Virus record (IMG/VR): IMGVR_UViG_3300031565_000194
Location: 1 to 34,058 of that record
Strand: one strand, 5' to 3'
Length of the DNA: 34,058 bases
From: a virus
In this document: one piece after another, positions 5,055-34,058 of the stretch
Position numbering within the stretch: the first letter of the stretch is position 1
Layout of the letters: each line of letters opens with the position of its first letter
The notes under the pieces: model-generated
What the model saw: only the letters and a program-made list of their open reading frames with translations
Database searches by the model: none
Told to the model about the DNA's origin: nothing
Made by a program: the position numbers and the translations under genes

Positions 5055-5186
5055 ATGATTATAGAAGACAAAGACATAGATAGAAAGATTGCGGAAGCGA
5101 TAGCAAGAGAATACAACGAAGACCCCGAAGAAATAGAAAAGGAAATTGAGTCTTGCAATCAATTACATTTGAGGGAGAATGTTTAA
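5055..5186 (+). CDS. Possible small acidic protein or gene remnant
   Basis: A 43-residue open frame (MIIEDKDIDRKIAEAIAREY...) with protein-like composition, rich in D, E and K. It has no clear ribosome site. It lies on the strand opposite the abnormal C-terminus of the DUF523-like gene, and that C-terminus reads as low-quality L/F-rich sequence, as expected for the antisense of a real coding region. It may therefore be the surviving end of an older + strand gene cut by the insertion of the DUF523-like gene. Confidence 0.3.
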   Translation: MIIEDKDIDRKIAEAIAREYNEDPEEIEKEIESCNQLHLRENV

Positions 5187-5478: not shown

Positions 5479-5485
5479 AACTCTA

Positions 5486-5514
5486 AATATAATACATTTT
5501 TTTCTATTTGTCAA
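5486..5514 (-). promoter_or_regulatory. Sigma70-type promoter of the DUF523-like gene
   Basis: Read on the - strand: TTGACA (5514-5509), a 17-base spacer and TATATT (5491-5486). The start codon at 5478 lies seven bases past the -10 box, so the mRNA would have almost no leader; there is no Shine-Dalgarno. The same boxes and spacing occur at 27989 and 28510. Confidence 0.85.
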
Positions 5515-5578
5515 GAGGAAAATTTAAGTAAGTGTCTTTTTTTCCCGAACTTAAAGATTTATAAGAGGGTAATTAACA

Positions 5579-7367: not shown

Positions 7368-7375
7368 GAGCGATT

Positions 7376-9855: not shown

Positions 9856-9864
9856 GGAGGAAAT

Positions 9865-11037: not shown

Positions 11038-11061
11038 TAGCAACTTAAACAAGGAGAAAAC

Positions 11062-12267
11062 ATGAAAATGGAGGAAGTTGTTGAGAGGGTAAAAGGTGCT
11101 CTTGGGGAGGACTATTTCAAGAGTGTTTTTGAGACTCCAGAGATGAAGAAACTGTTCGAAGCCCATGAGAGACTAAAAGATGTAAAGCCGGAAACTCTTA
11201 TTGAGAAGAAGGTTGAACTTGCTCAATCAGCACGCTTTTTAAGAGCACTTGCAAGAGGAGACCAGAAAACGCTAAAGGAAATCACCGATGAGGAGAGGAA
11301 AAAGTATTTCTCATGGCTATATGGTTTCAGTGGAAGTGATGTTGATCAGAAAGCTCTCACCACCTATCTCAATGAGACAACCGGCAGCGAAGGGGCATAC
11401 TTGACGCCTTTGGAGTATTACCAAAAGATGTTTGAAATCAAGACCTCATATGGTCTTGTTAGGGAAGAGTGCCTCACAATTCCTTTGACCACAAAGGAAA
11501 TGAAAATCAACAAATACATCACCGAGCCGACAACGTCCTGGATAGGTGAAAAGGTGAAAAAACCTGCAACCAAGCCAGTATTTGATCAGACAGAGCTGAA
11601 ACCCGAGAAGCAGGTTTGTATCATTCCTTTCACCGAAGAGGTTCTTGCTGATGCAACTCCACCTCTCGTTCAGTTCCTGATTAGCATAACAGCAAAGGCA
11701 TTCAAGAAGGGTGAGGATTATGCTTTTGTTAATGGTGCTGGAACCGACGTTTGCGGTGGAGTGGGAGTAGGCGTTCTTAACAATGCGAGCGTGAAGAAAA
11801 TCGTCATGGGAGAGGGCAAGACCAGTTTTGCTGATGTTGATTTCGATGAGCTTCTGAGAATGGCTGACGCTGTAGATGGTGACATGGACGAGGGCTCGAA
11901 GTTTTTCTTCAATAGAAACATCCTGCACAAGCTCATGATGAAGAAGGACAAAAACGAGCGATACCAATGGTTACCATCAATGGGAAAAGAAGGTCCCTCT
12001 ATCTGGGGTTATCCCTATAGGAAGTCTTCTCTGTTCCCGGGAAACGCCAATGATGGTGCCAATAAGCCTTTCATGGCTTTCGGTAACTTGAAGGAATGCG
12101 TGGCACTCGGAGACCGGCAGTCAATGGCCATCAAGCTGCTCACGGAAGCAACCATTGATGATACCAACCTCGCTGAGTATGACCTTCAAGCTTTGAGATT
12201 CGTATCCAGGGAGGATATTAAGATCATCCTCGCAGGAGGGATCTCCGTACTGTGGACTCACGCGTAA
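11062..12267 (+). CDS. HK97-fold major capsid protein
   Basis: 401 residues, ATG after AAGGAG. Residues 1-95 are helical and charged, like the delta domain cleaved by the prohead protease. The fold core follows: GAYLTPLEYYQKM near 110, then the E-loop and spine regions, KKGEDYAFVNGAG near 215, WGYPYRKS near 320 and AFGNLKECVALGDRQ near 340. Codon choice is even and the gene is well supported by position after the protease. A G+C-rich hairpin lies after the following gene (12809). Confidence 0.93.
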   Translation: MKMEEVVERVKGALGEDYFKSVFETPEMKKLFEAHERLKDVKPETLIEKKVELAQSARFLRALARGDQKTLKEITDEERKKYFSWLYGFSGSDVDQKALTTYLNETTGSEGAYLTPLEYYQKMFEIKTSYGLVREECLTIPLTTKEMKINKYITEPTTSWIGEKVKKPATKPVFDQTELKPEKQVCIIPFTEEVLADATPPLVQFLISITAKAFKKGEDYAFVNGAGTDVCGGVGVGVLNNASVKKIVMGEGKTSFADVDFDELLRMADAVDGDMDEGSKFFFNRNILHKLMMKKDKNERYQWLPSMGKEGPSIWGYPYRKSSLFPGNANDGANKPFMAFGNLKECVALGDRQSMAIKLLTEATIDDTNLAEYDLQALRFVSREDIKIILAGGISVLWTHA

Positions 12268-12325
12268 AACTAAGGAAAGAAAGGAGGTTTTTGTTAAAAT
12301 CTTAAATTCAAACAAGGAGGATATT

Positions 12326-12781
12326 GTGAAAAGGATTTTTCCCTTGCTCTTCGTCTTTGCATTCTTAGCACTATTTAGTGTCGAGATGGAGGCAACAGAT
12401 TATACACATGCGCAGCTCCTGAGCACTGACACGCTCTCTGCTACTGCAGCTTGCACACTCTATACCAGCGACTTCGCCTGGTTCAAGGACAGCACTGTTT
12501 GGCAACTCGGATTCTCATCAAACCAGGCAAACGATAGCACAGATCTTGCTATCAACGCTTACTGGGGAGTCGATTCAACATTAGGGCCCTGGACAGATGC
12601 ACAAGCCGTTGCAGCAAATCACATAATTGATGATTGGATTATGACACCATATTCAGCAGAAACCATAAGTAAATGGTTTGAATGGTGCAAGATAATCATT
12701 ACTGGCAATACAGGTTTGAACGGAGCAAGCACTATTGTAAAAACTTATATACTCTATAGGAAATACTGGAAAAAGGAATAA
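12326..12781 (+). CDS. Second signal-peptide protein after the capsid gene
   Basis: 151 residues, GTG start after AAGGAGG. MKRIFPLLFVFAFLALFSVEMEA is a good signal peptide, with cleavage likely after EMEA (residue 23). The mature part is acidic, with many D-S-T steps and aromatic residues (DSTVWQLGF, AYWGVDSTLGPW). It has the same length and general make-up as the product of 9400-9855, but I cannot align them confidently. Its position right after the capsid gene is where decoration or head-fibre genes sit. Function not known. Confidence 0.7.
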   Translation: MKRIFPLLFVFAFLALFSVEMEATDYTHAQLLSTDTLSATAACTLYTSDFAWFKDSTVWQLGFSSNQANDSTDLAINAYWGVDSTLGPWTDAQAVAANHIIDDWIMTPYSAETISKWFEWCKIIITGNTGLNGASTIVKTYILYRKYWKKE

Positions 12782-12808
12782 CTAAACTCCGTCCAGAGAA
12801 TAGAATGG

Positions 12809-12831
12809 GGGAGGGGTGCAATTCCCCTCCC
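12809..12831 (+). terminator. G+C-rich hairpin after the capsid cassette
   Basis: GGGAGGGG (12809-12816), loop TGCAATT, CCCCTCCC (12824-12831), followed by TTAAATTG. The stem is a perfect 8 bp but the T run is short, so it is probably a partial terminator or an mRNA 3' end stabiliser that lets capsid mRNA outnumber downstream mRNA. Confidence 0.6.
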
Positions 12832-12860
12832 TTAAATTGTAACATTAACCGGAGGAAAGT

Positions 12861-13295
12861 ATGAAATTTGGAAAGCAAAAAAGGAAACAAGAGAAACCTC
12901 CCGAGAAGGAACAACCGAAACCAGAGGAGCCCAAGGAGAAAGAAGACGAATTGAAGGCTGATGCTGAGGCTGCGGCAGTTTCGGAGCCCCAGCAGGAAGA
13001 GCAGAAGCCTGAGGAGAAACCAGAAGAGATCAAGGAAGAGGAGCATAAAAGCCTTATTCGGGTAAAATTGCAGAGATCCCTCTATTTTCCCATCAATGGA
13101 CGCCCCTGTGACGTTTCCTGCAGCAAGGATGAGATTGTCAGGGTTTCTAGGTCGGTCTTTGAGGAACATGAAGAGGATATAGAGGAGCTGGAACCGGGAC
13201 CAACCACGAGGGAGATACAGGAGGAGAAGGCTGGGAAGGGAAGCCTCAAGGAGAACACTATCAGTTCAAAAGATTTCGGCGGGAAGAAGGAGTAA
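12861..13295 (+). CDS. Highly charged head-region protein
   Basis: 144 residues, ATG after GGAGGAAAGT. Residues 1-60 are almost only K, E, P, Q and A and must be disordered. Residues 62-110 (SLIRVKLQRSLYFPINGRPCDVSCSKDEIVRV) form a compact region with predicted strands, and the end is charged again. It sits between the capsid and the connector gene, a slot often used for head-tail joining or head-completion proteins. I do not recognise the family. Confidence 0.6.
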   Translation: MKFGKQKRKQEKPPEKEQPKPEEPKEKEDELKADAEAAAVSEPQQEEQKPEEKPEEIKEEEHKSLIRVKLQRSLYFPINGRPCDVSCSKDEIVRVSRSVFEEHEEDIEELEPGPTTREIQEEKAGKGSLKENTISSKDFGGKKE

Positions 13296-13298
13296 TTT

Positions 13299-14096
13299 AT
13301 GGCTCTGATATCATTGCAACAGCTTAAGGATTTTATTCACATAAATGAGAATGACGTGGATACACTTCTTCAGGACATTATTGATGGAGAGTTGGCAGCA
13401 GTTGAGAGAATGATCAATCAACCGCTTGAGCAGACTATAGAAACGGAATACCATGATGGGGAGGATGACAATACACTTATTCTTAAATATGGTCTCGTAA
13501 AAGACATTACAAGCGTCAAAATCGATCGTGATGGTGATGGCATATTTGAAGATGAGTTATCTGAGCATGAAGACTATGAGTGGTATGACAACGGGCAGAT
13601 TGTACTCAAATCTGACTATTTCCCAGAAGGATTAAAGAACATCCAAGTCCAGTATAAGCATGGATGTTCATTCTCCACAGTAAACGCTACAAATCTTCCC
13701 ACTGACCAGGGATTTCCTGTTTTCAAGGATCGACCATCCTTTGTAGCAGGAGGTGACTATTCCGGACTGACCGGTGTTGCACTGAATACCGGACCAAATG
13801 GAACAGGGGATACAAAGACTGAAGGGATTGACTATGCGAACATGGAGTATACTGGTCAGGTGGTTGCCCTGGAAGCGGGAACCATAAGCAATGGAGATAT
13901 ATTATATGTGGAATCCGGAACATATACACAGTATTCAAACGTGCCAAAAGGACTCAGACTCGCGCTTCTAAAGCAAATGGCCAATACCTTTCACGCCACG
14001 TATGTTGTGACTGAAGCTGAAGGTGAAACAAGACGTTTCTCTCAGAAGAGCATCGATGCGGTATTGAATAAGTACACAAAGGTGACATTAGCATGA
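13299..14096 (+). CDS. Head-tail connector (gp6-like) with an inserted beta domain
   Basis: 265 residues. The N-terminus (LISLQQLKDFIHINENDVDTLLQDIIDGELAAVERMI) is the helical start of gp6-like connector proteins, which form a ring under the portal. Residues 55-115 follow the family pattern (YGLVKDITSVKI, FPEGLKNIQVQYKHG). Residues 125-205 are a glycine-rich beta segment not expected in the family, before the usual C-terminal helix begins at PKGLRLALLKQMANTFHATY. The insert may be a surface domain. GAAGAAGGAG precedes the ATG. Confidence 0.8.
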   Translation: MALISLQQLKDFIHINENDVDTLLQDIIDGELAAVERMINQPLEQTIETEYHDGEDDNTLILKYGLVKDITSVKIDRDGDGIFEDELSEHEDYEWYDNGQIVLKSDYFPEGLKNIQVQYKHGCSFSTVNATNLPTDQGFPVFKDRPSFVAGGDYSGLTGVALNTGPNGTGDTKTEGIDYANMEYTGQVVALEAGTISNGDILYVESGTYTQYSNVPKGLRLALLKQMANTFHATYVVTEAEGETRRFSQKSIDAVLNKYTKVTLA

Positions 14097-14575
14097 AAGC
14101 AGTTTTTAAGCTTGTTGGAACTCAGAAATTTTTGTCGAATGTCAAGAAAATTCAAAAGAAAGTTCCTGACGCATCACGCATGGGAATGTTGATGGCAACC
14201 GAATTGCTTAGAGGGTACATCGTCAAGTACAAACTCTCAGGTCAAAGACTCAAGGTACGAACCGGACGGTTACGTACAAGTATCGAGAAGGAAGTGAGTG
14301 GAAAAGGATTAGATATTGTTGGACGTGTTGGTTCAAATCTCAAATATGCAAGAATACATGAACTGGGTGGTCCAACAGAAGATATAACAATCGTTCCTGT
14401 AAGAGCGAAAGCACTTCACTTCTTCATCGGTGGTCAGGAAATCTTTTGCAGAGCTGTTCATATGCCTGCTTTTGCTATTAAACCAAAGTATTATATCAAG
14501 CAAAGTATGAGAGAAACTGCAAAACGCTTAACTCGTATTATGGGAAACAAAATCTTTATGGAGTTAAAGAAATGA
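14093..14575 (+). CDS. HK97 gp10-like head-tail joining protein
   Basis: 160 residues. The arrangement of an N-terminal helix, KVRTGRLRTSIEKEV near 56-70, and GSNLKYARIHELGG near 82-95 is the signature of the HK97 gp10 family, which joins head to tail or acts as a tail-neck protein. It overlaps the connector gene before it and the next gene after it by four bases each, so translation is coupled. Length is within the family range. Confidence 0.85.
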   Translation: MKAVFKLVGTQKFLSNVKKIQKKVPDASRMGMLMATELLRGYIVKYKLSGQRLKVRTGRLRTSIEKEVSGKGLDIVGRVGSNLKYARIHELGGPTEDITIVPVRAKALHFFIGGQEIFCRAVHMPAFAIKPKYYIKQSMRETAKRLTRIMGNKIFMELKK

Positions 14576-15066
14576 CGAAGGACGATGTGTTCCTTGAAAT
14601 GTATAACCGATTTAATGATACTATAAGCTCCACTTCAGACCTTCGAAAGGTATACAAGGAATTTGTTGAGTTCGAAACTGTGCCTATTAACTTCAATGCG
14701 GTGATCATGCTTGAACCAGATATCAGCGAACCTATCAAGAAAGCTTATGATGGCAAGGGTTTGAGTGGAAGTAATTGCACCTTTGAGAGCTTTAACTGTG
14801 TAATTCTTGTCCTGTTTAGACAGTTTGCAAAGCAGAGTGGAGTACTGGGAATCACAGGGAGAAAAGGAACTCTTAAATGGGAAAGATTTATTAAAGACAC
14901 TCTAACGACATCCCCGTACCATATGGGTGGTAAATGTCGAAAAGTGGAATTTGGTAACACCGCATATATGAGAAACATTCCAGGATTAGGGAAGGTTAAG
15001 CATACGATCCGTTTTGTGCAGATAGAAGTCTCATTTATCGGGTTTTACTCAACCACAGAGAGATAG
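14572..15066 (+). CDS. Putative tail terminator / tail completion protein
   Basis: 164 residues. No motif decides the call; the assignment rests on gene order (directly between the gp10-like gene and the tail-tube gene), where the tail terminator lies in lambdoid and HK97-like phages. The size fits. The second half has strands alternating with helices (CVILVLFRQF, VKHTIRFVQIEVSFIGFY), as expected for that fold. The start overlaps the preceding stop (ATGA). Confidence 0.6.
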   Translation: MTKDDVFLEMYNRFNDTISSTSDLRKVYKEFVEFETVPINFNAVIMLEPDISEPIKKAYDGKGLSGSNCTFESFNCVILVLFRQFAKQSGVLGITGRKGTLKWERFIKDTLTTSPYHMGGKCRKVEFGNTAYMRNIPGLGKVKHTIRFVQIEVSFIGFYSTTER

Positions 15067-15075
15067 GAGGTAAGC

Positions 15076-15240
15076 ATGCGAGATGAAAAAGATGTTGAAA
15101 AATTGGGAAAGAAGCGTCTTGAGATACTCAAGAAACTCAGCAAAATCAAAGCTGAGTATTCAGCTGTTTGCAAGCAAATTGAAGCACTGAATAAAAATGA
15201 CAGAAATTTAACACACTATGAAACAAAGGAGGTGAATTAA
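15076..15240 (+). CDS. Small coiled-coil protein
   Basis: 54 residues, ATG at 15076 after ATAGGAGG. It reads MRDEKDVEKLGKKRLEILKK and continues with heptad-like leucine and isoleucine spacing to residue 40, so it is probably a single coiled coil. Its stop abuts the next ATG, and its own end carries the ribosome site of the tail-tube gene (AAAGGAGG). It may be a small chaperone or only a translational coupler. Confidence 0.6.
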   Translation: MRDEKDVEKLGKKRLEILKKLSKIKAEYSAVCKQIEALNKNDRNLTHYETKEVN

Positions 15241-16032
15241 ATGAGTCAACTTGACGAGCTGTTTAGGGAAGTATTCACAGGTGATTTATATTATGACCCT
15301 GCAAGAGAATCATATCCAGGATATAGACTTCTTGGAAATGTTGAGATGATATCCTGGGGTGATGATGTCAGAACCTATCCAACGCATAACATGAAATATG
15401 GACAGGATGATGATGTCAAGCAGTTCAGAATAGCACGCACAATGAAAGTGCGTACAGACAGGGTTCACTATCAGAATTCGGAACTTGCAAGAGGCGAGAG
15501 CGCAATAGATGAGAATGCAGGTGTCTCAGCAGAAGTGCTTGATGAAATAGTTTCAATGGATCTTGCTCACACTGATAAGCTTGGATGGCATGCGCTTGTG
15601 CACGGTGGTGGAGCAAAAGCACCAAATACAGTTGTGATATGCTGGTCTGCTGCAGCAAAGAGCGGAACACAATCTATCGAGGGAACTGATTTCTACTTTG
15701 ATTATGCTCTTGGAAGAGCTGCAAGGATTGATGGTGGCAATATCTCCGATGGACAGGATATGTATTTCAGCTATAAATACACCACTCAGGATTATAAGGT
15801 CATTAAGCATTCTCAGAATAAAATCAACACCAAAGGAAAGTTCAAATACGTGCACACGATGGCCGACGGAACCAATGAGTTTATTGTTGAAATACCTTTA
15901 GGTTATGTTTCTGAAGTTGCAGAGGTTTCGGATTCAGAAGATCCTCGCACCCTGGAATTAACAATCCTGTCGCTCAGAAAAGAATCAGAGACTGGTCAGG
16001 AGCACGGCACAACGAAATTTGGTCAATCATAA
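15241..16032 (+). CDS. Putative major tail (tube) protein
   Basis: 263 residues, ATG preceded by AAAGGAGG. Mostly beta strands, with a segment at 140-170 (TNTVVICWSAAAKSG then GTDFYFDYALGRAARI) of the kind seen in tail-tube proteins that stack as hexameric rings. The strongest support is context: it lies after the tail terminator and immediately before the frameshifted chaperone gene and the tape measure. Sequence identity to a named family is not obvious. Confidence 0.7.
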   Translation: MSQLDELFREVFTGDLYYDPARESYPGYRLLGNVEMISWGDDVRTYPTHNMKYGQDDDVKQFRIARTMKVRTDRVHYQNSELARGESAIDENAGVSAEVLDEIVSMDLAHTDKLGWHALVHGGGAKAPNTVVICWSAAAKSGTQSIEGTDFYFDYALGRAARIDGGNISDGQDMYFSYKYTTQDYKVIKHSQNKINTKGKFKYVHTMADGTNEFIVEIPLGYVSEVAEVSDSEDPRTLELTILSLRKESETGQEHGTTKFGQS

Positions 16033-16044
16033 AAGGAGGGGTAA

Positions 16045-16464
16045 ATGACGCACAGAGATAGCACGCTTGTTGCTCAAAAATTCCTTTATCCCTCCATTAG
16101 TAAGGTCGCAAGCGCATACGGCAAGTTCATAGCTCATCTACATCTTGCTGGAGAGTTTACTGAGATTGATGCTGCAAAGATTACAGAAAAAGCTATTGAG
16201 CAAGCATATGAAAACATTCTCGATAAGGCTGAGGATATCTTTGGAGCGCTTGGAGACAGCATTATGGCAATCGTTCCTGCAGGTCTTAGGCTTGACCCTG
16301 AAAAACCAGAGGATAAGGTAAAACTTGATACCCTGGATGCTGATATGTGCCTTGACCTTCATGCAGCGATTTTGGAGGTGAATAAAGGTTTTTTCGTGAA
16401 ACTTTTGCGATCGGTTCTCGACAGCATTACAAGTCTATCTACAAAACGACGGAAACAGACATAG
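16045..16464 (+). CDS. Tail assembly chaperone, short (zero-frame) product
   Basis: 139 residues, ATG after AAAAGGAGGGG. Helical protein lying between tube and tape measure genes, the place of lambda gpG. Near its end the zero-frame codons GGT TTT TTC (16387-16395) contain T TTT TTC, a standard -1 slippery heptamer. Ribosomes that slip make a longer protein ending at 16670; those that do not stop at 16464. Both products normally coat the tape measure during tail assembly. Confidence 0.85.
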   Translation: MTHRDSTLVAQKFLYPSISKVASAYGKFIAHLHLAGEFTEIDAAKITEKAIEQAYENILDKAEDIFGALGDSIMAIVPAGLRLDPEKPEDKVKLDTLDADMCLDLHAAILEVNKGFFVKLLRSVLDSITSLSTKRRKQT

Positions 16465-16670
16465 AACTAATATTCATCAAGGAGGGAATATCAAGAGCAG
16501 ACCTGATGAAAATGGCGTGGGACGAATACTATGACCTTGGTGAAAGCATAATGAAACGTTCCCGAATCGTAAAAGGAAAACCACAACGTAGAGATGTGAC
16601 TCCGTATGGTGAGAAGGTTCTTCTTGCGTCGAGACAGAAGAACATACATAAAACACATAAAAGGAAATAA
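16045..16670 (+). CDS. Tail assembly chaperone, long -1 frameshift product
   Basis: Reading moves back one base after the TTC at 16393-16395 and continues with CGT at 16395 (RETFAIGSRQ...) for 91 codons without a stop to TAA at 16668-16670. The fusion is about 208 residues: 117 from the zero frame plus 91. The extension holds ADLMKMAWDEYYDLGESIMKR and a basic end, and the open frame has no start of its own near its 5' end, as expected for a GT-type extension. The stop overlaps the tape-measure start (TAATG). Confidence 0.83.
16389..16395 (+). promoter_or_regulatory. -1 ribosomal slippery site
   Basis: The heptamer T TTT TTC in X XXY YYZ phasing with the zero frame. No strong pseudoknot is evident just after it from reading alone. 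Confidence 0.85.
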
Positions 16671-18556
16671 TGAATCTTGGTGAAATATATGCTGAGCTGA
16701 AACTAAAAGCGGGGCAGTTTCATAAAGAGCTTGGTAAGACTCGTGGCTCCGTTGAAAAACAAGCGAAACTCATTGGAAAAGCATTCCTGGGAGTGACTGC
16801 TGCAATAGCTGGTATTACTTATGCTATGATAAGGGTAACCAAGAGTCTTGTTACTGCTTACAGTCAACAGGAGTCAGCTGAGAAGAAGCTTGAGGCTGCA
16901 TTGAAGGCAACAGGGAATCAGGTCGGCATAACAAAAGACCAGATGCTTGAAATGGCAGCACAACTGCAAGACCTGACTATGTATGGTGACGAGACCGTCA
17001 TTAGTGCTCAATCGTTGATGGTAACATTCAAAAACATTGGTAGGGAAGTTTTCCCGGATGCGATAAAAGCTGCAATGGATATGAGTACAATGTTTGGTCA
17101 AACTCTACAGCAATCAGTGATTCAACTCGGTAAAGCTCTTAACGCTCCCACAAAAGGATTGGGGAGATTGGCATTAGTCGGTATTGATTTCAGTGAAAAA
17201 CAAAAGAAAATGGTCAAAGGCTTTGAGGATGCTAACAATATAATGGGTGCTCAGAAAATTATTCTTGATGAAATCAAAGGTGAGTTCGGTGGAGTTTCTG
17301 AGGCTGCAGCTAACACCACAGAGGGTGCACTCACACAGCTTAAGAATATGTTTGGCGACATTAAAGAGGATTTAGGAGAAAAGGTTGCTCCGACAATCTC
17401 GATGGCAGCAAGACTTCTTAAGACAGCTTTCCAGGAAGTGCTTAAGAGCCTTGATATTTTGTTGCCATCGCTTAATGCTATGGGTGAAAGCACTGACAAA
17501 GCTAATGAGGCAGGTTTACGTTTCGCTACCTTTACAACAAGAGCTATGTTCAAAATTAGGAAAGCAGTGGACAGGGTGAAAATTGTTTTCTGGACTTTAG
17601 CAGGAGTTTTCTCAAAAGTAATTTTTGGGATTATTAAAGGTTTAACATCACTTGAAGAAGTTTGGTATCAGACGGCTATTAAGATAGCAGAAGTAACAGA
17701 CAAGGTATTTCGCACAAATTATGCCGAATCGCTTAAAGCGGGACACAAGCATCTTGTTAACATAACACAAGATTTTAAGGATTTTGCTGATTTAGCACTT
17801 GCGAGAGCTGATGAGTTAGCTGGTGGATTGACAGGTATTACAAACGCTGAGCAACAAGCTGTGGATAGGATAATAGCTGAATACCAAAAGCTTATCGAGA
17901 CTAAAGTAGAAGCACTTGGTGCTCCTCCCGCTCCTGTTGCTCCATCCGGTGGTGGTGGAGGTGGTGCAGGTGCAGGTGCTGCACTTCCATATGGAGCAGA
18001 GGAGGTTGATGTTTTTACACAATCATTAGAAGAAACAACGGACAAGATGAAAAGCTTAGACCAGGCTATGCAAAGTTTTGGTTCTTCAACTGCATCGTGG
18101 TTCAAACAAGGGAAAGTATCAGGTGAAGATTTCCGTAATGAATTGATTAAGATTGCTGCTCAGTTGGTGCTTATGAATATTTTGAAAGGTGCCACAGGTG
18201 CTGGGTTTTTCAGTGGTTTTGCAAATAGTTTACTTAGCTTTGGTTCTGGAGGTGTGGTTGCTCCTCCTCCTTTTGCAGCAAACGGCCTTGTAGTTGATAG
18301 TCCAATGATCACAAAGTCAGGTGCAGTCGTAGGTGATAGAAGAGCAACTAACCCAGAGGTGATCCTTAATAAGCAGGAAATGGCTGACATGGTGTATGGG
18401 CTTTCTCATCCAGAGGTACATATATTTGCTACGAACATTAATGCTGAAACTCAAATCAAAACGTGGGTCAAAATGTCTGCAAGTGCAAAGCAGTTACTCG
18501 GGCGTTTCCTTGACGAAGAAGTTTTGCCTGAAAGGAACAGGCTAAAAGGTATATAA
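16670..18556 (+). CDS. Tail length tape measure protein
   Basis: 628 residues, short for the family. The N-terminus (MNLGEIYAELKLKAGQFHKEL) and the repeated helices with periodic A and K match lambda gpH-type tape measures. Residues about 45-65, 300-330 and 505-540 are hydrophobic. A linker of P, A and G (about 420-445, with six glycines in a row) separates the coil from a C-terminal part carrying VVGDRRATNPEVILNKQEM. By the usual rule of about 1.5 angstrom per residue the tail would be near 90-100 nm. Its start overlaps the chaperone stop. Confidence 0.9.
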   Translation: MNLGEIYAELKLKAGQFHKELGKTRGSVEKQAKLIGKAFLGVTAAIAGITYAMIRVTKSLVTAYSQQESAEKKLEAALKATGNQVGITKDQMLEMAAQLQDLTMYGDETVISAQSLMVTFKNIGREVFPDAIKAAMDMSTMFGQTLQQSVIQLGKALNAPTKGLGRLALVGIDFSEKQKKMVKGFEDANNIMGAQKIILDEIKGEFGGVSEAAANTTEGALTQLKNMFGDIKEDLGEKVAPTISMAARLLKTAFQEVLKSLDILLPSLNAMGESTDKANEAGLRFATFTTRAMFKIRKAVDRVKIVFWTLAGVFSKVIFGIIKGLTSLEEVWYQTAIKIAEVTDKVFRTNYAESLKAGHKHLVNITQDFKDFADLALARADELAGGLTGITNAEQQAVDRIIAEYQKLIETKVEALGAPPAPVAPSGGGGGGAGAGAALPYGAEEVDVFTQSLEETTDKMKSLDQAMQSFGSSTASWFKQGKVSGEDFRNELIKIAAQLVLMNILKGATGAGFFSGFANSLLSFGSGGVVAPPPFAANGLVVDSPMITKSGAVVGDRRATNPEVILNKQEMADMVYGLSHPEVHIFATNINAETQIKTWVKMSASAKQLLGRFLDEEVLPERNRLKGI

Positions 18557-21237
18557 TGAAAACTATATCAACGACAGCAAAGCGATTACTTTCAAAAGGA
18601 ACTGTCAAGAAGATGTGGAACAAGGCGTATCTTGAGGAAATATCAACGGATGCCTTGACAGAAATAACAGCGTTAATAAAGGATGTTGGTAGAGGTGAAT
18701 CGCATATAGAGAGTTCATTCAATGTATTTTCTCCAAGCACGGTGAGTATTACCGTTTGGAATCGAGAAAAGCAAGCTATTAAGTTTCTTGCGAATGATGA
18801 GGCAAGTGGACTATTCGACAAACTTTATAACGCTACGGCACAGGGTTACAGAATTGTACTAAAGAAAGGTGTGGAGGGTGCAGTTGATGAATTAGTAATG
18901 TTTGACGGACAAGTTGACATAGGAAGTATCAAACATCCTGACCGCGAAACCGTGGTATTTACAGCAACAGGATGGTTAGCAGATGCAGGAGAATATGATG
19001 CGGGTGTAGTTTCTGATCCTGAGAACCCTCCTCTCCATAACATAACAGGGTTAGACTTATCAAATCCTGTTGGTGATTTAGGAGGGAAAGACCTTCAAGT
19101 TGGAGCAGTTGAAGCCGCAACAGCTGAACATAACGAAAGAAAATTTTTAAGTTACTGTGGAGGAGAAAAGCAATATATCCCAATAACTTCACCGACATAT
19201 TTATATCTAACTCTATACGAACCGAATAATAGAGGGCATATAGACGTTAGAGTTACCGCTTCTCTTGTGAATGAAGATAAAAAAGATTATTTTTCTGTGC
19301 GAGAATACGAAGGTGCGCTAATTGCTTGCGGTTGGTATGAACATCGAAGTATCAAAGAAATGGTAAACCACCTGCTCGATGCTTGGTGGGGTGAAGGAGT
19401 TGGCACAAGAGATATTCAGGTTGACGAAACTCCCGGAGGAACTCCTCAAAAACAATTTGTTTATTTTGCTCCGTTCATTGATTCAGGAAATAAGGAACCT
19501 ATAAACATTACAGCAAGCAGGGTTATTGACTATAATGACACGACAAAAAAGATTAAAATGCTTGTGGCTGTTGAGTGGAAAAAAGAGAGTAATAATAAAA
19601 TATATCTTGTAGAATTTGACTTGGTAGAGCAAACAAGAACGGTACAACATATTGTTAGTGGAGCAAGTAATTCAATATGGAGAGTTGCAAAGTTTATAAA
19701 TTGGAGAGGTGACTATTACGCTGTTGCAGGAAGCAGACACACAGGGGCAATGGAAGAGGACGAATGGTGGGCTGAGGCTTTTTGGAAACTGGATTTAGTA
19801 AATTATAACACAAGTCATATTGTTTACATTCCAAGTCAGGCTACGCTACCAAGTCACTGGTTTAATCTTTATAGCATCTCGGCTCCAGATGAAGGGGCTT
19901 CGGCGCATACCTGTTATGCACTTCAGCAGTTAGCATTTGCAGGAATAGCATACACTATAGAACTCGACATTTTTGACATCGATACAAAAGAGTGGCATTA
20001 TGTTTCTATTGCGAAGGACAATGCCTATGCCTATCAAAGAGCTACATACGGAATAAGAGGAACTTCTACTCCAGGATATTATTTTGCTTATAAATTACAA
20101 GATGGAAGTCACAATATTATCCAAACGATGAGTTATGTTAATGGCATAACTTTAAGTTCAGGCGTTAGCAGTCAGGAATTTCTTTGGACATCTAAAATTG
20201 GAACAGTCGTAACCGATTTTTATTGGCATAAAAGGTCGGACCCAGTCCACTCCAAAACATTTTTTAGAGCTTATGATGATACAAATGGAACAAAGGCAAA
20301 GTGGATAAGAAGTTTCCCTCCCGAGAATGTTCCGAATGGTGATGAAATACGATATATGGGTGGCAATGAATTACAAGACGCTCATTATACTGCTTGGAAA
20401 GTAGAAGCTGGTCACACTTGGAAAATACAATCTTGGGAGGCATATTTCGGTGGTGGTGGTAATGTTCAGAATGAAGATGGTTTAATGTTGGCTTATTTTG
20501 GTGACATTGACTCGCCTCATATATTCAAGACAATACAGTTAAATGATTATTATTTCTGTGGTTTTGTTACCGACAAGAATTTGAGAATATATCCTTATGT
20601 GTATGTGCCTGCTGATGTGATTTACTCGACGATTAAAGAAGCTGATTTTACTAACTGGACAATCTGGAATGCATTAAAGTATATAGCAGAAGCATTCCTT
20701 TGTTATTTCTTCATTCCTGAATATCAAAACATTAGATTTTATAACCGCAACAGGTTCAACGGCACACTCACTATTAAGAATTATAGAAAACCTTTAGAGG
20801 ACGAGATTTATAAATACTTTTATGATGGCATTCATATAGAAAACTCAAAATACGGATTGAGTAAAAAACTCGGCAACTGTGGGAAGAAAGCGAGAGTTTT
20901 TCATATAGACAATAGGCTTATCTCCGAAGACAGTATAAGTTTGGTTGCTCAATGGTATTATAACTTTTTCTGCATCATTGGTCGAAAAAAACTATACCTG
21001 GTAATTGTTCCTTTTCTCTTCGAGGCTGAATGTATGGATAAGGCAATTTTGCAAGAATACGACCTTCACCAGAACTTACTGCATACTAAAAACACAATCG
21101 TATATGAGGCTTCATTTTCAATATGGAGAGGGAAGGAAGATACCAATGACATTATTTTACGGTGCTTAGAATATGAAGGTGGTGGAAATATCCACGAACT
21201 AAAACTGAGCAAAACAAGTAAGAGGCTGATAATATGA
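18556..21237 (+). CDS. Large tail tip / hub protein
   Basis: 893 residues, starting in the stop codon of the tape measure gene (TAATGA). The N-terminal 150 residues look like a distal-tail beta domain (LEEISTDALTEITALIKDVGRGES, then GYRIVLKKG, VMFDGQVDIG). A long middle part (220-640) is beta-rich with many W, Y and repeated sheets and may be a propeller or carbohydrate-facing domain. The end (690-890), with IWNALKYIAEAFLCYFFIP and a cluster of Y and N, resembles hub domains. It is probably the baseplate hub and may carry a host-contact module. Confidence 0.65.
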   Translation: MKTISTTAKRLLSKGTVKKMWNKAYLEEISTDALTEITALIKDVGRGESHIESSFNVFSPSTVSITVWNREKQAIKFLANDEASGLFDKLYNATAQGYRIVLKKGVEGAVDELVMFDGQVDIGSIKHPDRETVVFTATGWLADAGEYDAGVVSDPENPPLHNITGLDLSNPVGDLGGKDLQVGAVEAATAEHNERKFLSYCGGEKQYIPITSPTYLYLTLYEPNNRGHIDVRVTASLVNEDKKDYFSVREYEGALIACGWYEHRSIKEMVNHLLDAWWGEGVGTRDIQVDETPGGTPQKQFVYFAPFIDSGNKEPINITASRVIDYNDTTKKIKMLVAVEWKKESNNKIYLVEFDLVEQTRTVQHIVSGASNSIWRVAKFINWRGDYYAVAGSRHTGAMEEDEWWAEAFWKLDLVNYNTSHIVYIPSQATLPSHWFNLYSISAPDEGASAHTCYALQQLAFAGIAYTIELDIFDIDTKEWHYVSIAKDNAYAYQRATYGIRGTSTPGYYFAYKLQDGSHNIIQTMSYVNGITLSSGVSSQEFLWTSKIGTVVTDFYWHKRSDPVHSKTFFRAYDDTNGTKAKWIRSFPPENVPNGDEIRYMGGNELQDAHYTAWKVEAGHTWKIQSWEAYFGGGGNVQNEDGLMLAYFGDIDSPHIFKTIQLNDYYFCGFVTDKNLRIYPYVYVPADVIYSTIKEADFTNWTIWNALKYIAEAFLCYFFIPEYQNIRFYNRNRFNGTLTIKNYRKPLEDEIYKYFYDGIHIENSKYGLSKKLGNCGKKARVFHIDNRLISEDSISLVAQWYYNFFCIIGRKKLYLVIVPFLFEAECMDKAILQEYDLHQNLLHTKNTIVYEASFSIWRGKEDTNDIILRCLEYEGGGNIHELKLSKTSKRLII

Positions 21238-27680: not shown

Positions 27681-27988
27681 TTTTCACATCGTTCCAAAAA
27701 AACGCTTCTACCACCCATTACTGCCCTTTTTATTTATCCAGTTTTTATGGACTTTTTGATGTCAAATTTGCCCCGTGTGAGGTTTTCTCATATAGACAGG
27801 TATCTATACTTGCCTCAAGAGGAGTTCGCCCTGTGAGCGTTATTTTGACATTTTGAAGAAATTGACTTTTTCGGAAATTCTCTAACAGCCCCAGAAAAAA
27901 TAATTAAAAATATTTTTATTCCTAACTCTATATATATCAACACTTACAAACTATTTAGAAAAAAAATGAAAAAAAATGAAAAAAAGAC
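27681..27988. other. AT-rich intergenic control region, no gene seen
   Basis: About 300 bp between the end of the late block and the first early promoter. It contains short dyads (TGAG-GTTTT-CTCA near 27786; an imperfect AGGTA/TGCCT dyad at about 27798-27815), two TTGAC boxes near 27845 and 27862 without good -10 partners, then a strongly AT-rich stretch (27891-27988) with tandem AAAAAAAATG units. It could hold operators or a replication origin; nothing is decisive. No strong terminator is visible after 27680. Confidence 0.5.
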
Positions 27989-28017
27989 TTGACAAACTAC
28001 GAAAAATAGTATATATT
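27989..28017 (+). promoter_or_regulatory. Early promoter P1 (sigma70-type)
   Basis: TTGACA (27989-27994), 17 bases, TATATT (28012-28017). Context AAAAAGACTTGACAAA is shared with P2 at 28510. An ATG follows eight bases after the -10 box at 28026. Confidence 0.88.
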
Positions 28018-28327: not shown

Positions 28328-28513
28328 ATGGAACAAAAAGAATTATTAACTCAAAGAGAATTCTGCGCACTGCTGAAAATTAGCAGACAGACCTTTCAAA
28401 ACTGGCTGGCACCGGGAAGTGATAACAAGCTCAAAGAGTGTGCATTCAAGATTGGACGAGAATGGAGAGTTGATATAGCAAAGTATTTTCGACTAATTCA
28501 AAAAAAGACTTGA
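28328..28513 (+). CDS. Small helix-turn-helix DNA-binding protein
   Basis: 61 residues from the ATG at 28328 (AAAGGGGAAATC upstream). LLTQREFCALLKISRQTFQNWLAPG is a helix-turn-helix of the AlpA/excisionase type, and FKIGREWRVDIAKYFR is the wing typical for it. The stop codon overlaps the -35 box of promoter P2 (28510), so it probably sits next to its own target. It may be the switch regulator for replication or for the antisense element. Confidence 0.75.
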   Translation: MEQKELLTQREFCALLKISRQTFQNWLAPGSDNKLKECAFKIGREWRVDIAKYFRLIQKKT

Positions 28514-28538
28514 CAAAACAGCTTTCCTGCGTTATATT
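28510..28538 (+). promoter_or_regulatory. Early promoter P2 (sigma70-type)
   Basis: TTGACA (28510-28515), 17 bases, TATATT (28533-28538). The flanks AAAAAAGACTTGACAAA and ATGAAAAAG nine bases after the -10 box match P1 closely, so P1 and P2 look duplicated. It would transcribe the replication genes and the sense strand of the element below. Confidence 0.85.
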
Positions 28539-28547
28539 AATATTAAT

Positions 28548-28700
28548 ATGAAAAAGCCACAGAGTAGCAACGGGTTTTTTAGCCCCGAAGAAAAATTGCG
28601 AAGCGGGATGGATTCAGGTTCAGATTTCAAACCTAACCGTTTGTACTCTGTGGCTACCCTGTTTGTATCCCGCTCGCGTTATTATAACCAGGGAAAATGA
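28548..28700 (+). CDS. Possible leaderless leader peptide
   Basis: A 50-codon open frame beginning three or so bases after the predicted P2 start, with no ribosome site. Its codons coincide completely with the paired arms of the antisense element, so much of its sequence is probably set by RNA structure. It may be only a by-product, or a translated leader whose reading affects folding upstream of the replisome organiser. Confidence 0.25.
   Translation: MKKPQSSNGFFSPEEKLRSGMDSGSDFKPNRLYSVATLFVSRSRYYNQGK
28551..28675 (-). ncRNA. Candidate antisense regulatory RNA with pseudoknot
   Basis: Transcribed from the promoter at 28681-28709, starting near 28675. The first bases AGCGGGAU (28674-28667) pair with AUCCCGCU (28609-28602). 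Within that loop AGCCACAGAGUA (28655-28644) pairs perfectly over 12 bp with UACUCUGUGGCU (28566-28555), followed by UUUUU (28555-28551), a terminator-like 3' end. The pairings interleave, giving a pseudoknot. Two local hairpins (AGGUU/AACCU at 28634-28616; CGGG/CCCG at 28587-28571) add to it. One pair at the first hairpin is G-U on this strand and C-A on the other, favouring the - strand as the functional RNA. It would be fully complementary to the P2 leader of the replisome-organiser mRNA. No known RNA class recognised. Confidence 0.6.
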
Positions 28701-28709
28701 AGCTATCAA
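28681..28709 (-). promoter_or_regulatory. Antisense promoter (sigma70-type)
   Basis: Read on the - strand: TTGATA (28709-28704), 17 bases, TATAAT (28686-28681). A perfect -10 and five of six -35 bases with ideal spacing. It faces P2, about 140 bp away. Confidence 0.75.
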
Positions 28710-28761
28710 AAAAAGAACCTTGTCTGTGTCAATATGGTTGATATGGACATTATAAGAAAGT

Positions 28762-29697
28762 TTGGAAGTGAAAAGTTATAGAGAAGACAATAGACCGTCT
28801 TTGCAATTCTATCCCGATGACTGGTTGAGTGAGCCAGGATTAAATATCTGTTCACTCGCTGCACAAGGATTGTGGATTAAAATGATTAGCATTATGTGGA
28901 AGGCAGATATAAGGGGTTGTTTGAAAGCAAATGGGAAGCAAATCAATAGCAAAGGGTTAGCAAAACTTAGTGGCGTATCAGAAGAAGAAATTAGCAAACT
29001 CCTAAAGGAGCTGGGGGATAATAATGTTTATTCAACCCTCGAAGATGGAACGATTTACTCTCGAAGATTATATCGAGAAGCATACAAGGAAAGAGAGCTA
29101 CGGGAAGCAAGAACGGAAGCTGGGCGACTTGGTGGTTTGGCAAAAGGCAAGCAAACGCCTAGCAAACTACATAGCAAAAAGGTAGCAAAACAGCCTTCTC
29201 CTTCTTCTACTCCTTCTCCTTCTCCTTCTCCTCCTTCTCCTTCAAAGACTAAAACCTTTAGTCTGAACTCTACCGAGTTCAAACTATCAAAACTTCTTTT
29301 TGATTTAATCAGAAAACGAAAACCTAACTTCAGAGAACCGGACTTTCAAAAATGGGCAGTGCATATTGATAAATTAATTAGAATAGACAAAAGGACCCCA
29401 GAACAGGTTGAAGTAGTAATTCACTGGTGCCAATCAGACACTTTTTGGAGAAATAACATCCTGTCAACACAAAAGCTCAGAGAACAGATAGACCAGCTTG
29501 AGCTTAAGATGCGTTCTCAAAAGGAGAGCGTCGAGGATAAGCTCAGGGAGAAGGCTAAAAATTGCTCACAATATGCGGGTCGGGGAGTTTGCATATATGA
29601 AGCGCAAGGAGTTATAGAGGAGTTTTGTAAGTATTGTTCACGATATATGGAAAAACAAAAAAAGGAAGGAGGTGAAAAAGGTGAAGGTCGGAGATGA
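28762..29697 (+). CDS. Replisome organiser / helicase-loader-like protein (YdaU/DUF1376-like)
   Basis: 311 residues. The N-terminal domain (FYPDDWLSEPGLNICSLAAQGLWIKMISIMW, LAKLSGVSEEEISKLLKEL, GTIYSRRL, RTEAGRLGGLAKGK) is the winged-helix replisome-organiser type of phages. A Pro/Ser linker (about 144-163) encoded by CCTTCT repeats follows. Then a helical domain (WAVHIDKLIRIDKRTPEQVEVVIHWC...FWRNNILSTQKLREQ) like DnaD-type loader regions, and four Cys near the end. The TTG at 28762 is a weak start; GTG at 28768 is possible. It likely binds the origin and recruits host helicase. Confidence 0.8.
   Translation: MEVKSYREDNRPSLQFYPDDWLSEPGLNICSLAAQGLWIKMISIMWKADIRGCLKANGKQINSKGLAKLSGVSEEEISKLLKELGDNNVYSTLEDGTIYSRRLYREAYKERELREARTEAGRLGGLAKGKQTPSKLHSKKVAKQPSPSSTPSPSPSPPSPSKTKTFSLNSTEFKLSKLLFDLIRKRKPNFREPDFQKWAVHIDKLIRIDKRTPEQVEVVIHWCQSDTFWRNNILSTQKLREQIDQLELKMRSQKESVEDKLREKAKNCSQYAGRGVCIYEAQGVIEEFCKYCSRYMEKQKKEGGEKGEGRR
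29194..29243 (+). repeat. CCTTCT microsatellite in the linker
   Basis: Repeats of CCTTCT and CTCCTT encode the Ser/Pro linker of the replisome organiser. Six-base unit changes stay in frame; three-base units also occur. Confidence 0.85.
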
Positions 29698-31175: not shown

Positions 31176-31827
31176 ATTCAAGGCGCATATAGTGTACAAG
31201 ACTTCTGACGGGCAACGTGCCCCCGGGGCTTCGACTATCACGGGGGTATTAAATAAAGGGGCTTTAATTCATTGGGCGTGGGACCTTGGAATACAAGGTA
31301 TAGATTACAAGAAATACAGAGACAATCTCGCAGATATTGGGACCTTGGCCCACTATATGATTCTTTGTCTTTGCAAAGGTGAAACTCCTGACACTTCCGA
31401 TTACAGTAATGCTCAAATCACCGCGGCTGAAAATTGTGTTAAGAAATTCAAATCTTGGCTTGCGGAAAACTCTGTTGAATTTCTCCTTGTAGAGCATCCA
31501 CTGGTAAGCGATAAGTATAGATTCGGGGGGATGTTCGATTCGCTGTGTAAGAGAAAGGACAATGGAAAGATTTTGCTTGTTGACTACAAAACAAGCAAAG
31601 CGATCTATGGAGAGCATTTTCTGCAGCTTGCCGGCTATCATCACCTTGTAGAGGAAAACACAGAGTATAAAATTGACCAGAACATCATCTTGCGAATTGG
31701 TAGGGATGACAACGAGGGGTTTGAAGTTAAAGTCAGGGACAACCTTGAAAAAGAATGGGAACTCTTCAAACACTGTGCTGAGATCTATCATTTGCAGAAG
31801 GAGCTCAAAAAAGCAGGGAGGTGGTAA
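31165..31827 (+). CDS. PD-(D/E)XK (RecB/Cas4-like) exonuclease
   Basis: 220 residues. Motif order: GTLAHY with H63, LLVEHPL with E110, RFGGMFDSL with D125, ILLVDYKTS with D140 and K142, and LQLAGYHH with Q154. This is the complete nuclease core. ATG preceded by AAGGAGAAGAAAG. It would resect DNA ends so that the next gene's product can anneal single strands. Confidence 0.9.
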   Translation: MANKFKAHIVYKTSDGQRAPGASTITGVLNKGALIHWAWDLGIQGIDYKKYRDNLADIGTLAHYMILCLCKGETPDTSDYSNAQITAAENCVKKFKSWLAENSVEFLLVEHPLVSDKYRFGGMFDSLCKRKDNGKILLVDYKTSKAIYGEHFLQLAGYHHLVEENTEYKIDQNIILRIGRDDNEGFEVKVRDNLEKEWELFKHCAEIYHLQKELKKAGRW

Positions 31828-31829
31828 AA

Positions 31830-32816
31830 ATGACAAACGAAAAACAAGATAATCTTCCCGTTGCTTCCAACAATGTTCCTGCTGTTGCTATTTTTGGTTC
31901 GCTCGACCCGGACGCTCTAATCAGAAAAGCAAGTGATTATGCAACAGCATTGGCGAAAGTTATAGAGGATAAGAAGCTCTATGCCGTTATAAAAGAGAAA
32001 AAACACACACAGGTGGAAGGCTGGACAACACTTGGGGCAATGTTGGGGGTTTTCCCTCATGTGATTTGGTCTAAAAGACTACCAGAGAAGGATGCTGATA
32101 TAGGCTTTGAGGCAAGAGTGTCAATTCAAACCCTTGATGGTAAAGAGATTGCTTCTGCAGAGATGCAATGTAGTACGAAAGAAAAAAACTGGCATGGTCG
32201 AGATGAATATGCGGTCAGGAGTATGGCACAAACAAGAGCAACATCTAAGGCATTTAGGCTTGGTCTTTCCTGGATTATGGTCTTAGCCGGTTATGAGGCA
32301 ACGCCACTTGAGGAAATAATTGGCAGTTCAGAATTTGCGAATAAAGATAAAAAATCTGGAAAATCAGGGAAGGGTCAACAGAACAAAACTTTCAAGTCCG
32401 GCCCAGAGGTGGAGAAGATTAAAAAGCTCCTTGAGGAACGAGAAGTCCCGGATACCATTCGCAAGCAGATTATGGATCAGCTGTCAAAACTTACCAAGAA
32501 TCAAGCCCAGGGATGGATTAAGAACCTTGAGAAGCGACCGAAGAAGAAAAGAACTCCACTACCAACTGTTGACAGTACAGCAGGTGAGAAGCAGCCAGAG
32601 AACAATGAGGAGTCACCTCAGGACGAGGATTCACAGCTAAGGGACGTGTTTATAGCGAAGTACATCGAGACCTGGTTGAAGAGCAAGGGCGTTGACCCCA
32701 AAACAAATGATAAGAATTTGACCGCAGTGGCTCGCAATATGGGGGAGAAGAAGGTTAGAAAGATGACAACAGAACAGGTGAAGGTGGCGCTTGCTGAGAT
32801 GGAAGAGGAACAATAA
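31830..32816 (+). CDS. Putative single-strand annealing recombination protein
   Basis: 328 residues from the ATG at 31830 (AGGGAGG upstream). Residues 10-150 hold the conserved part, including HTQVEGWTTLGAMLGVFPHVIW and RDEYAVRSMAQTRATSKAFRLGLSW and GYEATPLEE. Families with this layout sit beside phage exonucleases, and the Q-T-R-A-x-S-K-A helix is widespread. RecT or Rad52-type annealing is inferred, not proven. The C-terminal 130 residues are charged with a helical end. Confidence 0.65.
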   Translation: MTNEKQDNLPVASNNVPAVAIFGSLDPDALIRKASDYATALAKVIEDKKLYAVIKEKKHTQVEGWTTLGAMLGVFPHVIWSKRLPEKDADIGFEARVSIQTLDGKEIASAEMQCSTKEKNWHGRDEYAVRSMAQTRATSKAFRLGLSWIMVLAGYEATPLEEIIGSSEFANKDKKSGKSGKGQQNKTFKSGPEVEKIKKLLEEREVPDTIRKQIMDQLSKLTKNQAQGWIKNLEKRPKKKRTPLPTVDSTAGEKQPENNEESPQDEDSQLRDVFIAKYIETWLKSKGVDPKTNDKNLTAVARNMGEKKVRKMTTEQVKVALAEMEEEQ

Positions 32817-32981
32817 GTGAATAGGCTCGACTGTGGCGTTCTGGCGTCAGGTAAGGCGATTTTGCTATCCAGACTTGTTATCACTGATTGCGGTAGCGAT
32901 AATAGCGAAGTGGAGCAGAGTGCGGAATCCTGCCAGCCGAGCCTTCAAAGTAAGGGGGAATTGTGGATACTCTTAGAATAA
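32817..32981 (+). CDS. Possible small protein
   Basis: A 54-residue open frame (GTG start, GAGG about eight bases upstream) that begins three bases before the end of the preceding reading and overlaps the next gene by 19 bases. Composition is not strongly protein-like and codon use is unlike its neighbours. The stretch could instead be untranslated. Listed with low confidence. Confidence 0.3.
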   Translation: MNRLDCGVLASGKAILLSRLVITDCGSDNSEVEQSAESCQPSLQSKGELWILLE

Positions 32982-33130
32982 CAGTTTCAAAAGATGGAAA
33001 TGCATGGTGTGCTCTTGTAGGAAAAGATTTGCAAGAAGGGATTGCTGGATTCGGCGATACCCCCAAAGAAGCAATAGAAGCATTGTGTAATGAAAAGGAT
33101 TTTACAATACTCTGTGATGAGCAGCATTGA
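32963..33130 (+). CDS. Small HicB-like domain protein
   Basis: 55 residues, GTG start with GGGGG eight bases upstream. MDTLRITVSKDGNAWCALVG and GIAGFGDTPKEAIEAL is the beta-alpha pattern of HicB-like small proteins. It lacks the C-terminal DNA-binding part and no HicA toxin is adjacent, so a toxin-antitoxin role is not supported. Confidence 0.55.
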   Translation: MDTLRITVSKDGNAWCALVGKDLQEGIAGFGDTPKEAIEALCNEKDFTILCDEQH

Positions 33131-33476
33131 AACCGAGGTAGCGAAGAAATGCCCGAAGTGCGGCATCCTCGGAATGCGGAAAATCGAGGACACAGATTAT
33201 TATGTGTGTGATTTTTGTGGATGTCACGACAAGAGGTCACTGAGCGACGAAGAAATCGAGAGACTGAAAATCGAATTCGTAAACACACCTCAGAGACGGG
33301 CTATTTATAACATTTTAGAAGAATGGGGAGAACTCAGTAACCCGCAGTTAAAGCGGATTGCAGACAGCGAAGGTGTCACCTGCGGTGATGAAGTTGCGAG
33401 ACAAATGAGACCGCTCACTGTGACGTGGAAACCGCAAGGACAACGGTGCAAGTGGTGGAAATTAGCGTGGAGGTGA
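33117..33476 (+). CDS. Zinc-ribbon plus winged-helix protein
   Basis: 119 residues from the ATG at 33117; ATG at 33090 would add nine residues, and no ribosome site settles it. CPKCG and CDFCG (about 11-15 and 30-34) form a zinc ribbon. TPQRRAIYNILEEWGELSNPQLKRIADSEGVT looks like a winged-helix recognition part, and the end is basic and W-rich. It probably binds DNA. Confidence 0.6.
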   Translation: MSSIETEVAKKCPKCGILGMRKIEDTDYYVCDFCGCHDKRSLSDEEIERLKIEFVNTPQRRAIYNILEEWGELSNPQLKRIADSEGVTCGDEVARQMRPLTVTWKPQGQRCKWWKLAWR

Positions 33477-33477
33477 A

Positions 33478-33675
33478 ATGAGAAACCTTATTTACTGGAT
33501 AATTTTATGTTCAGGTTTTTTGTGTAGTTTATTCGTAATTCTGGGAATTACAACCTTTTCGTTTAGTCTGCAATTTGCGATACATTATTGGATAGGTTCA
33601 GGTATATGGCTTGTGATTAGCCTATTGCTATGTCTTGGATTGTGGATTCAGAAGAAATTTCACAAGGAGGACTGA
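33478..33675 (+). CDS. Two-helix membrane protein
   Basis: 65 residues, ATG after GGAGGTGAA. Two hydrophobic helices (about 3-25 and 35-57) with a basic end (QKKFHKED). The stop shares bases with the start of the repeat protein. Because it lies in the early block it is more likely an exclusion or host-membrane protein than the lysis holin. Confidence 0.6.
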   Translation: MRNLIYWIILCSGFLCSLFVILGITTFSFSLQFAIHYWIGSGIWLVISLLLCLGLWIQKKFHKED

Positions 33676-34058
33676 TGTGTCAATTTTTCAGTCTTAACTC
33701 GGATGGGGAGGCAAACTTATTTTATTTTGACAGTGAAATTCGTAAAAAGATTATGAGGGAGAAATTGGATTATGATACTGATTCTCATACCAGTATAGCA
33801 GACTATTTTGGGTTCAAGGGAGCAAAAGAAGATAAACTTAACAAATATGAATACAACCCTTTGACAAAGAAATTCAAAATAGACCAACTCAACAACAAAG
33901 ATGACAGCAAAGAAGTCGAACAAAAATGTCGCAAACTTGATTTCTCTAAAATTGTGCCAGAATTGATAATTAAACCTATCATAAACCCGTTTACAGATAA
34001 ACATAGAAAAAGAGTAACAAAAAAAGATATAGAGAAATTGAAAAAATGGAATTCGGTC
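33675..34058 (+). CDS. [A/D]SVx tandem-repeat phage protein, 5' part (continues at base 2)
   Basis: Start of the gene listed at 1-430; ATG overlaps the preceding stop and has AAGGAGG upstream. The N-terminus MCQFFSLNSDGEANLFYFD and SHTSIADYFGFKG is a conserved module I recall from repeat-bearing phage proteins, followed by NKYEYNPLTKKFKIDQ and a lysine-rich stretch. On the circle the gene is 687 bp for 228 residues, because 33932-34058 equals 1-127. Function unknown. Confidence 0.8.
   Translation, partial: MCQFFSLNSDGEANLFYFDSEIRKKIMREKLDYDTDSHTSIADYFGFKGAKEDKLNKYEYNPLTKKFKIDQLNNKDDSKEVEQKCRKLDFSKIVPELIIKPIINPFTDKHRKRVTKKDIEKLKKWNSV
33932..34058. repeat. Terminal direct repeat, right copy
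   Basis: Identical to bases 1-127; ends inside the first unit of the 12-bp repeat. Count this stretch once in the circular genome. Confidence 0.9.

Follow-up and report, generated by a model that had tools for sequence, protein, structure and literature searches.

In the plasmid pIP501, the 136-nt RNAIII attenuates transcription of repR, and CopR prevents convergent transcription (PMC4981023). In phage lambda, the promoter pO makes the OOP RNA just upstream of the O gene; OOP is antisense to cII, and pO tempers transcription from pR and matters for replication (PMC3985674). As cited in PMC10724649, ColIb-P9 and its relatives use RNAI together with a leader pseudoknot, and R1 uses CopA together with a leader peptide. 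A limited literature search turned up no account of a phage whose replisome organiser has an antisense RNA on its leader.

We analysed the complete 34,058-nt sequence of the virus record IMGVR_UViG_3300031565_000194, hereafter the window, with attention to the gap between an HTH_17 gene (end 28513) and rep, which encodes a DnaD-like replisome organiser. Two facing predicted promoters, P2 and P-, lie in this gap. Our best reading, in which we place about as much confidence as doubt, is that P- gives rise to a cis-encoded RNA of about 124 nt directed against the leader of the rep mRNA, with translation of Rep probably coupled to a short leader ORF. The features on which this reading draws are collected in Table 1.

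Table 1. Features in and around the gap upstream of rep (positions in the window; promoters, RNAs and structures are predicted)
Feature	Position	Strand	Remarks
Small HTH_17 (excisionase-like) DNA-binding protein gene, upstream neighbour	28328-28513	+	Pfam PF12728, E 2.3e-06; PHROG matches
Promoter P2	28510-28538	+	TTGACA-17-TATATT; 11/12 consensus bases; start ~28545; predicted promoter of rep mRNA
Terminator-like hairpin	28568-28551	-	GCTAC-TCT-GTGGC then TTTTT; found by terminator scan
Predicted antisense RNA, ~124 nt	28551-28674	-	P- start at the outer end of helix B, terminator-like site at that of helix A; folds
Helix A	28555-28566/28644-28655	- (within 28555-28655)	12 bp; 2x2 internal loop, then extension 28569-28573/28637-28641 (5 bp)
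Helix B	28602-28609/28667-28674	- (within 28602-28674)	8 bp; extension 28615-28618/28658-28661 (4 bp)
Hairpin between arms	28614-28636	-	9 of 9 bp on -, three of them G-U; 6 of 9 on +
Hairpin C	28657-28693	+	CCCUG 28657-28661/CAGGG 28689-28693; predicted to mask the SD of the leader ORF
Promoter P-	28709-28681	-	TTGATA-17-TATAAT; 11/12 consensus bases; start ~28674; predicted, convergent to P2
Possible leader ORF, 14 codons	28697-28741	+	MKLSKKEPCLCQYG; SD energy -5.1
Helix E	~28702-28710/28760-28768	+	Predicted to cover the Rep start codons
Hairpin D	28721-28749	+	13 bp on + (4 G-U), 9 of 13 on -
rep, DnaD-like replisome organiser/helicase loader	28762-29697 (TTG 28762 or GTG 28768)	+	PHROG 2514, E 1.6e-30, plus other replication families
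Two AGCAAA arrays inside rep, ~11-bp spacing	28926-29189	+	Likely origin iterons

Comparison with plasmid and phage counterparts

The pIP501 order copR-pII-RNAIII/pIII-repR (PMC4981023) is shared by the phage locus, with a small DNA-binding gene followed by a sense promoter, a long leader, a convergent antisense promoter and the initiator gene, and at 136 nt RNAIII is similar in size to the predicted phage RNA. The phage leader differs in having no visible sense-strand attenuator, and the terminator scan gave no plus-strand terminator-like site between 28546 and 28762. The initiator is DnaD-like, unlike the RepR/RepC-type initiators of pIP501 and pT181; the upstream protein belongs to HTH_17 and is at most a putative CopR counterpart; and the element is carried by a phage and not by a plasmid. 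A convergent antisense RNA to the initiator leader, as in pIP501 and pT181, is found here at the sequence level only, and since no sense-strand attenuator was found we have not filed the locus as a pIP501-type member. The earlier note had proposed plasmid-like antisense control of the replisome organiser. The convergent antisense layout on the rep leader fits that proposal, with pIP501 the best parallel, but no attenuator of the pIP501/pT181 type is seen on the sense strand, and the closer phage precedent, lambda pO/OOP, had not been named.

As with lambda pO and OOP, a short convergent RNA that ends at a terminator would lie immediately upstream of a phage initiator gene, and likely origin iterons occur inside that gene. 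The AGCAAA motif is found in rep at 28926, 28937, 28948 and 28959 and again at 29150, 29161, 29173 and 29184; four sites fall within 40 nt, compared with at most one or two in 60 Markov genomes. The arrays are a probable origin, placed as in lambda O. The predicted phage RNA ends at 28551, which leaves 37 nt before the upstream gene; because that gene is not reached, we do not regard the RNA as an OOP homologue. It would be antisense to the leader from a second sense promoter, P2, and not to the upstream regulator.

The position relative to initiator and iterons would equally suit a locus in which, as at lambda pO, the convergent promoter itself matters, tempering P2 transcription into the origin inside rep, with the RNA a by-product or directed at another target. 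Activity of lambda pO reduces the transcription from pR that passes pO and has an effect on replication, and the oop RNA leaves the stability of the O-P mRNA unaltered (PMC3985674). This explanation, which we consider unlikely though far from negligible, leaves the elaborate RNA folding and the strand-specific G-U pairs described below unaccounted for.

The phage locus also resembles ColIb-P9 and R1, as cited in PMC10724649, in its predicted antisense RNA to an initiator leader, its possible short leader ORF before the initiator and its alternative pairings. It differs from them in that pseudoknot and coupling are only predicted in the phage and in that the initiator is unrelated; no sequence relation was found.

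Promoters, ends and helices of the predicted minus-strand RNA

The facing promoters with 17-bp spacers described in the earlier note are present. Promoter-like sites as good as P2 and P- number six in the 34-kb record, counting both strands, compared with zero to two in each of 20 Markov genomes. Three of the six (P1, P2 and P-) lie in the rep region, two are inside coding sequence, and one is at 5514 on the minus strand. P1 and P2 are, judging by their sequences, a duplicated promoter. The same 18-bp stretch spans the -35 hexamer in both (27979-27996 and 28500-28517), and ATGAAAAAG sits 8-9 nt past the -10 hexamer in each.

Transcription from P- is predicted to start at about 28674, where helix B has its first base, and helix A runs directly into the U-run at 28555-28551. 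In our judgement this match between predicted ends and helix ends is the strongest argument for a discrete minus-strand RNA. The terminator scan bore out the end in UUUUU proposed in the earlier note; the start given there, about 28675 for an RNA of about 125 nt, is corrected to a most likely start of about 28674 and a length of about 124 nt. A 32-codon TTG frame with a hydrophobic end (28630-28532, minus strand) extends beyond the predicted terminator and was judged unlikely.

Helices A and B are interleaved, as the earlier note had claimed for its two long stems, and each has an extension. They are the only perfect interleaved pair of at least 11 plus at least 8 bp in the genome, and six Markov genomes together contained one such pair. 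Among 3,000 local dinucleotide shuffles, a stem of at least 12 bp occurred in four and an interleaved 12 plus 8 bp pair in none. The fold z-scores for the exact 124 nt are -2.95 on the minus strand and -2.38 on the plus strand, so that fold energy by itself is only moderately unusual. These moderate scores, together with the single copy of the element, would suit a minus strand that carries no functional RNA and owes its appearance to chance, but a promoter, a terminator-like site and rare interleaved helices all coincide here, and we find this explanation scarcely credible.

The frame that opens at 28548 could be a real leaderless gene of 50 amino acids, with the inverted repeats serving as protein sites or arising by chance. 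Its ATG lies 9 nt past the -10 hexamer of P2, and its stop overlaps the start of the leader ORF as ATGA. A comparable spacing is found elsewhere in the genome, where the promoter-like site at 5514 precedes a real gene of family PF04463 (5062-5478, minus strand), the 2-thiouracil desulfurase family formerly called DUF523, on an otherwise little-used strand. As the ATG of this gene is about 8 nt past the -10 hexamer, its mRNA may be leaderless. The 28548 frame, however, scores only 0.004 for codon use, where the 2nd percentile for windows taken from genuine phage genes is 0.038; it has neither an SD nor a family match; and the interleaved helices that it would leave to protein sites or chance were absent from all of the shuffles. 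We therefore disfavour this frame as very unlikely indeed, yet keep it as a rival because leaderless starts may occur in this phage, as the PF04463 gene suggests.

Helices A and B tell nothing about the strand, since both are pure Watson-Crick helices and form equally on the plus strand. Other pairs are strand-specific. The ninth pair of helix B is G-U on the minus strand only. The count in the earlier note, which gave one helix with such a pair, was too low, as minus-only G-U pairs are also found in the 28614-28636 hairpin and in the terminator hairpin, where one U-G pair, read from the sequence, would be C-A on the plus strand. Downstream of the antisense RNA the bias flips, with hairpin D at -13.5 kcal/mol on the plus strand and -3.8 on the minus strand. 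On these folding predictions, the bias toward the minus strand inside the RNA and toward the plus strand in hairpin D fits an antisense RNA on the former and an mRNA leader on the latter.

The best nested fold with helix A has an energy of -39.0 kcal/mol and that with helix B -37.1 kcal/mol, under an energy model that does not score pseudoknots. Because these nested folds are nearly equal in energy, we treat a pseudoknot as a possibility only; A and B may coexist, may alternate, or one alone may form. The interleaved topology allows the pseudoknot of the earlier note, but the alternative nested folds differ little in stability. Formation of the 28614-28636 hairpin excludes the 4-bp extension of helix B, and vice versa.

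In HDV-like ribozymes two helices interleave and each long loop carries a hairpin, an order that the phage element shares. The ends of the phage element would differ in being set by a promoter and a terminator and not by cleavage. No Rfam ribozyme model matched even at E 10, and we rejected this reading of the topology.

Sense leader and the start of Rep

The rep leader from P2 is predicted to be about 216-222 nt long. In this leader, hairpin C competes with the extension of helix B for CCUG 28658-28661, and it is followed by AAAA on the sense strand. The loop of hairpin D holds the start codon, ATG, of another short ORF that overlaps (28734-28781). The SD of Rep is weak, at -3.0 to -3.3, compared with -8 or lower for many genes of the same phage. 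When a ribosome is placed on the leader ORF, the predicted unpaired probability of the Rep TTG rises from 0.04-0.07 to 0.23-0.46. Coupling of Rep translation to the leader ORF is plausible on this basis; we infer that translation of the leader ORF probably opens helix E over the Rep start.

The antisense RNA made from P- would be complementary over its whole length to the 5' leader of the rep transcript from P2 (about 28545), and it would cover CCCUG 28657-28661, the strand that masks the SD of the leader ORF. With full antisense pairing, the predicted unpaired probability of this SD rises from 0.19 to 0.93 in one folding window and is unchanged (0.27, 0.28) in a longer one. Because release of the SD by pairing depends on the folding window, we claim no direction for a translational effect; to expect repression through interference between the promoters or through cleavage of the duplex is more conservative.

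Under the antisense reading, the locus would most likely lower or time the synthesis of the replisome organiser. It would do so by transcription against P2 and by RNA-RNA pairing, with cleavage of the duplex or an altered leader fold. The promoters, terminator-like site, helices, strand-specific G-U pairs and complementarity are read directly from the DNA; from them we infer that P2 and P- are both transcribed, that the two RNAs pair with each other, that the net effect is negative and that coupling through the leader ORF operates. In favour of this reading, strong convergent promoters flank the element, the predicted RNA ends agree with its helix ends, its interleaved helices have no match in the shuffles, the G-U pairs favour the expected strands, Rep has a weak SD and a predicted covered start, and the layout matches pIP501 and lambda. 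The only other intergenic minus-strand promoter of comparable quality, at 5514, also counts in favour, since it precedes a real gene. Against the reading stand the occurrence of the element in one genome, the lack of a visible sense-strand attenuator and the prospect that full pairing might free the SD of the leader ORF.

The structure could instead act mainly on the plus strand, as a rep leader that governs the leader ORF and Rep by switching between helix A plus hairpin C and helix B, or to a pseudoknot of A and B, with P- in a minor role. Helices A and B form equally well there, C and B compete for the same bases, and D is specific to that strand. Such a switch is nevertheless decidedly unlikely in our estimate, since P-, the minus-strand terminator and the minus-specific G-U pairs coincide with the ends and interior of the element.

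A more ambitious version of the antisense reading, possible but doubtful, is a phage with a plasmid-style copy-number circuit, in which an antisense RNA with a genuine pseudoknot, belonging to a class without known relatives, together with a switching sense leader coupled through the leader ORF, sets the amount of replisome organiser. If antisense control does operate here, the rate at which a phage initiator acts would be set by the type of antisense RNA mechanism known from plasmid copy number, and the control of phage and plasmid replication would be linked in a compact, testable locus. In lambda, by contrast, the RNA in this position is reported to target cII and not the O-P mRNA. It would then be worth seeking convergent promoters ahead of other phage initiators.

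Distribution of the element and genome setting

The element is known from one genome only. Blastn searches with it gave no homologue among phages and none among plasmids, apart from one chance Buchnera match. The arm pattern AGCCACAGAGTANNAACGG had no match in IMG/VR and three in genome contigs, none of which had the second arm. The element was not recovered from relatives reached through the HTH, downstream-gene, portal and terminase proteins. A near-identical record (G008) reaches no further than 31590-34058 and 1-18668; two related records (G009 and G010) had no match to the replication genes, and a lone, short match of 14 bp in G009 was taken as chance. No homologue was found in the upstream regions of 80 DnaD-like rep loci or in the whole records of 48 of them. 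Two single-sequence covariance models (R1 and R2) likewise gave no homologue in 607 kb and 34 records; models of this kind have little power for diverged relatives, and some of the other search routes need near-identity. The plus-strand covariance matches at the locus mirror its own inverted repeats. Convergent promoters showed no clear pattern as a general trait of the scanned related rep loci, 13 of which have a minus-strand site of at least 10/12 within 700 nt, in most cases at a long distance from the start.

No Rfam 15 family reached its gathering threshold in the window or the element, and matches of the element to mir-3547 and LPR10 were rejected as being at chance level. The compactness of the RNA, with a promoter and a terminator-like site of its own, would also suit a phage small RNA that acts in trans by binding to an RNA or protein of the host and is merely located in the gap. 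The lack of a match to known RNA families speaks against this, and full complementarity to the rep leader follows from position without any extra assumption; we consider a trans-acting RNA very unlikely.

The ends of the record are identical over 127 bp (1-127 and 33932-34058), and a second record, 3300031673_000574, crosses the junction between end and start, so that the genome is complete and circular, at about 33,931 bp. Recognised genes include those for terminase, portal, major head, tail tape measure, endolysin, replisome organiser, AAA ATPase and exonuclease, and a scan for tRNA and tmRNA genes found none. A 514-amino acid protein (1890-3434) has a ParB N-terminal domain; we noticed no ParA to go with it, so that a plasmid-like lifestyle is no more than speculation. 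Among phage records, the best match of the terminase (5940-7367) is to the ANMV-1 virus of an uncultured archaeon, at 36% identity.
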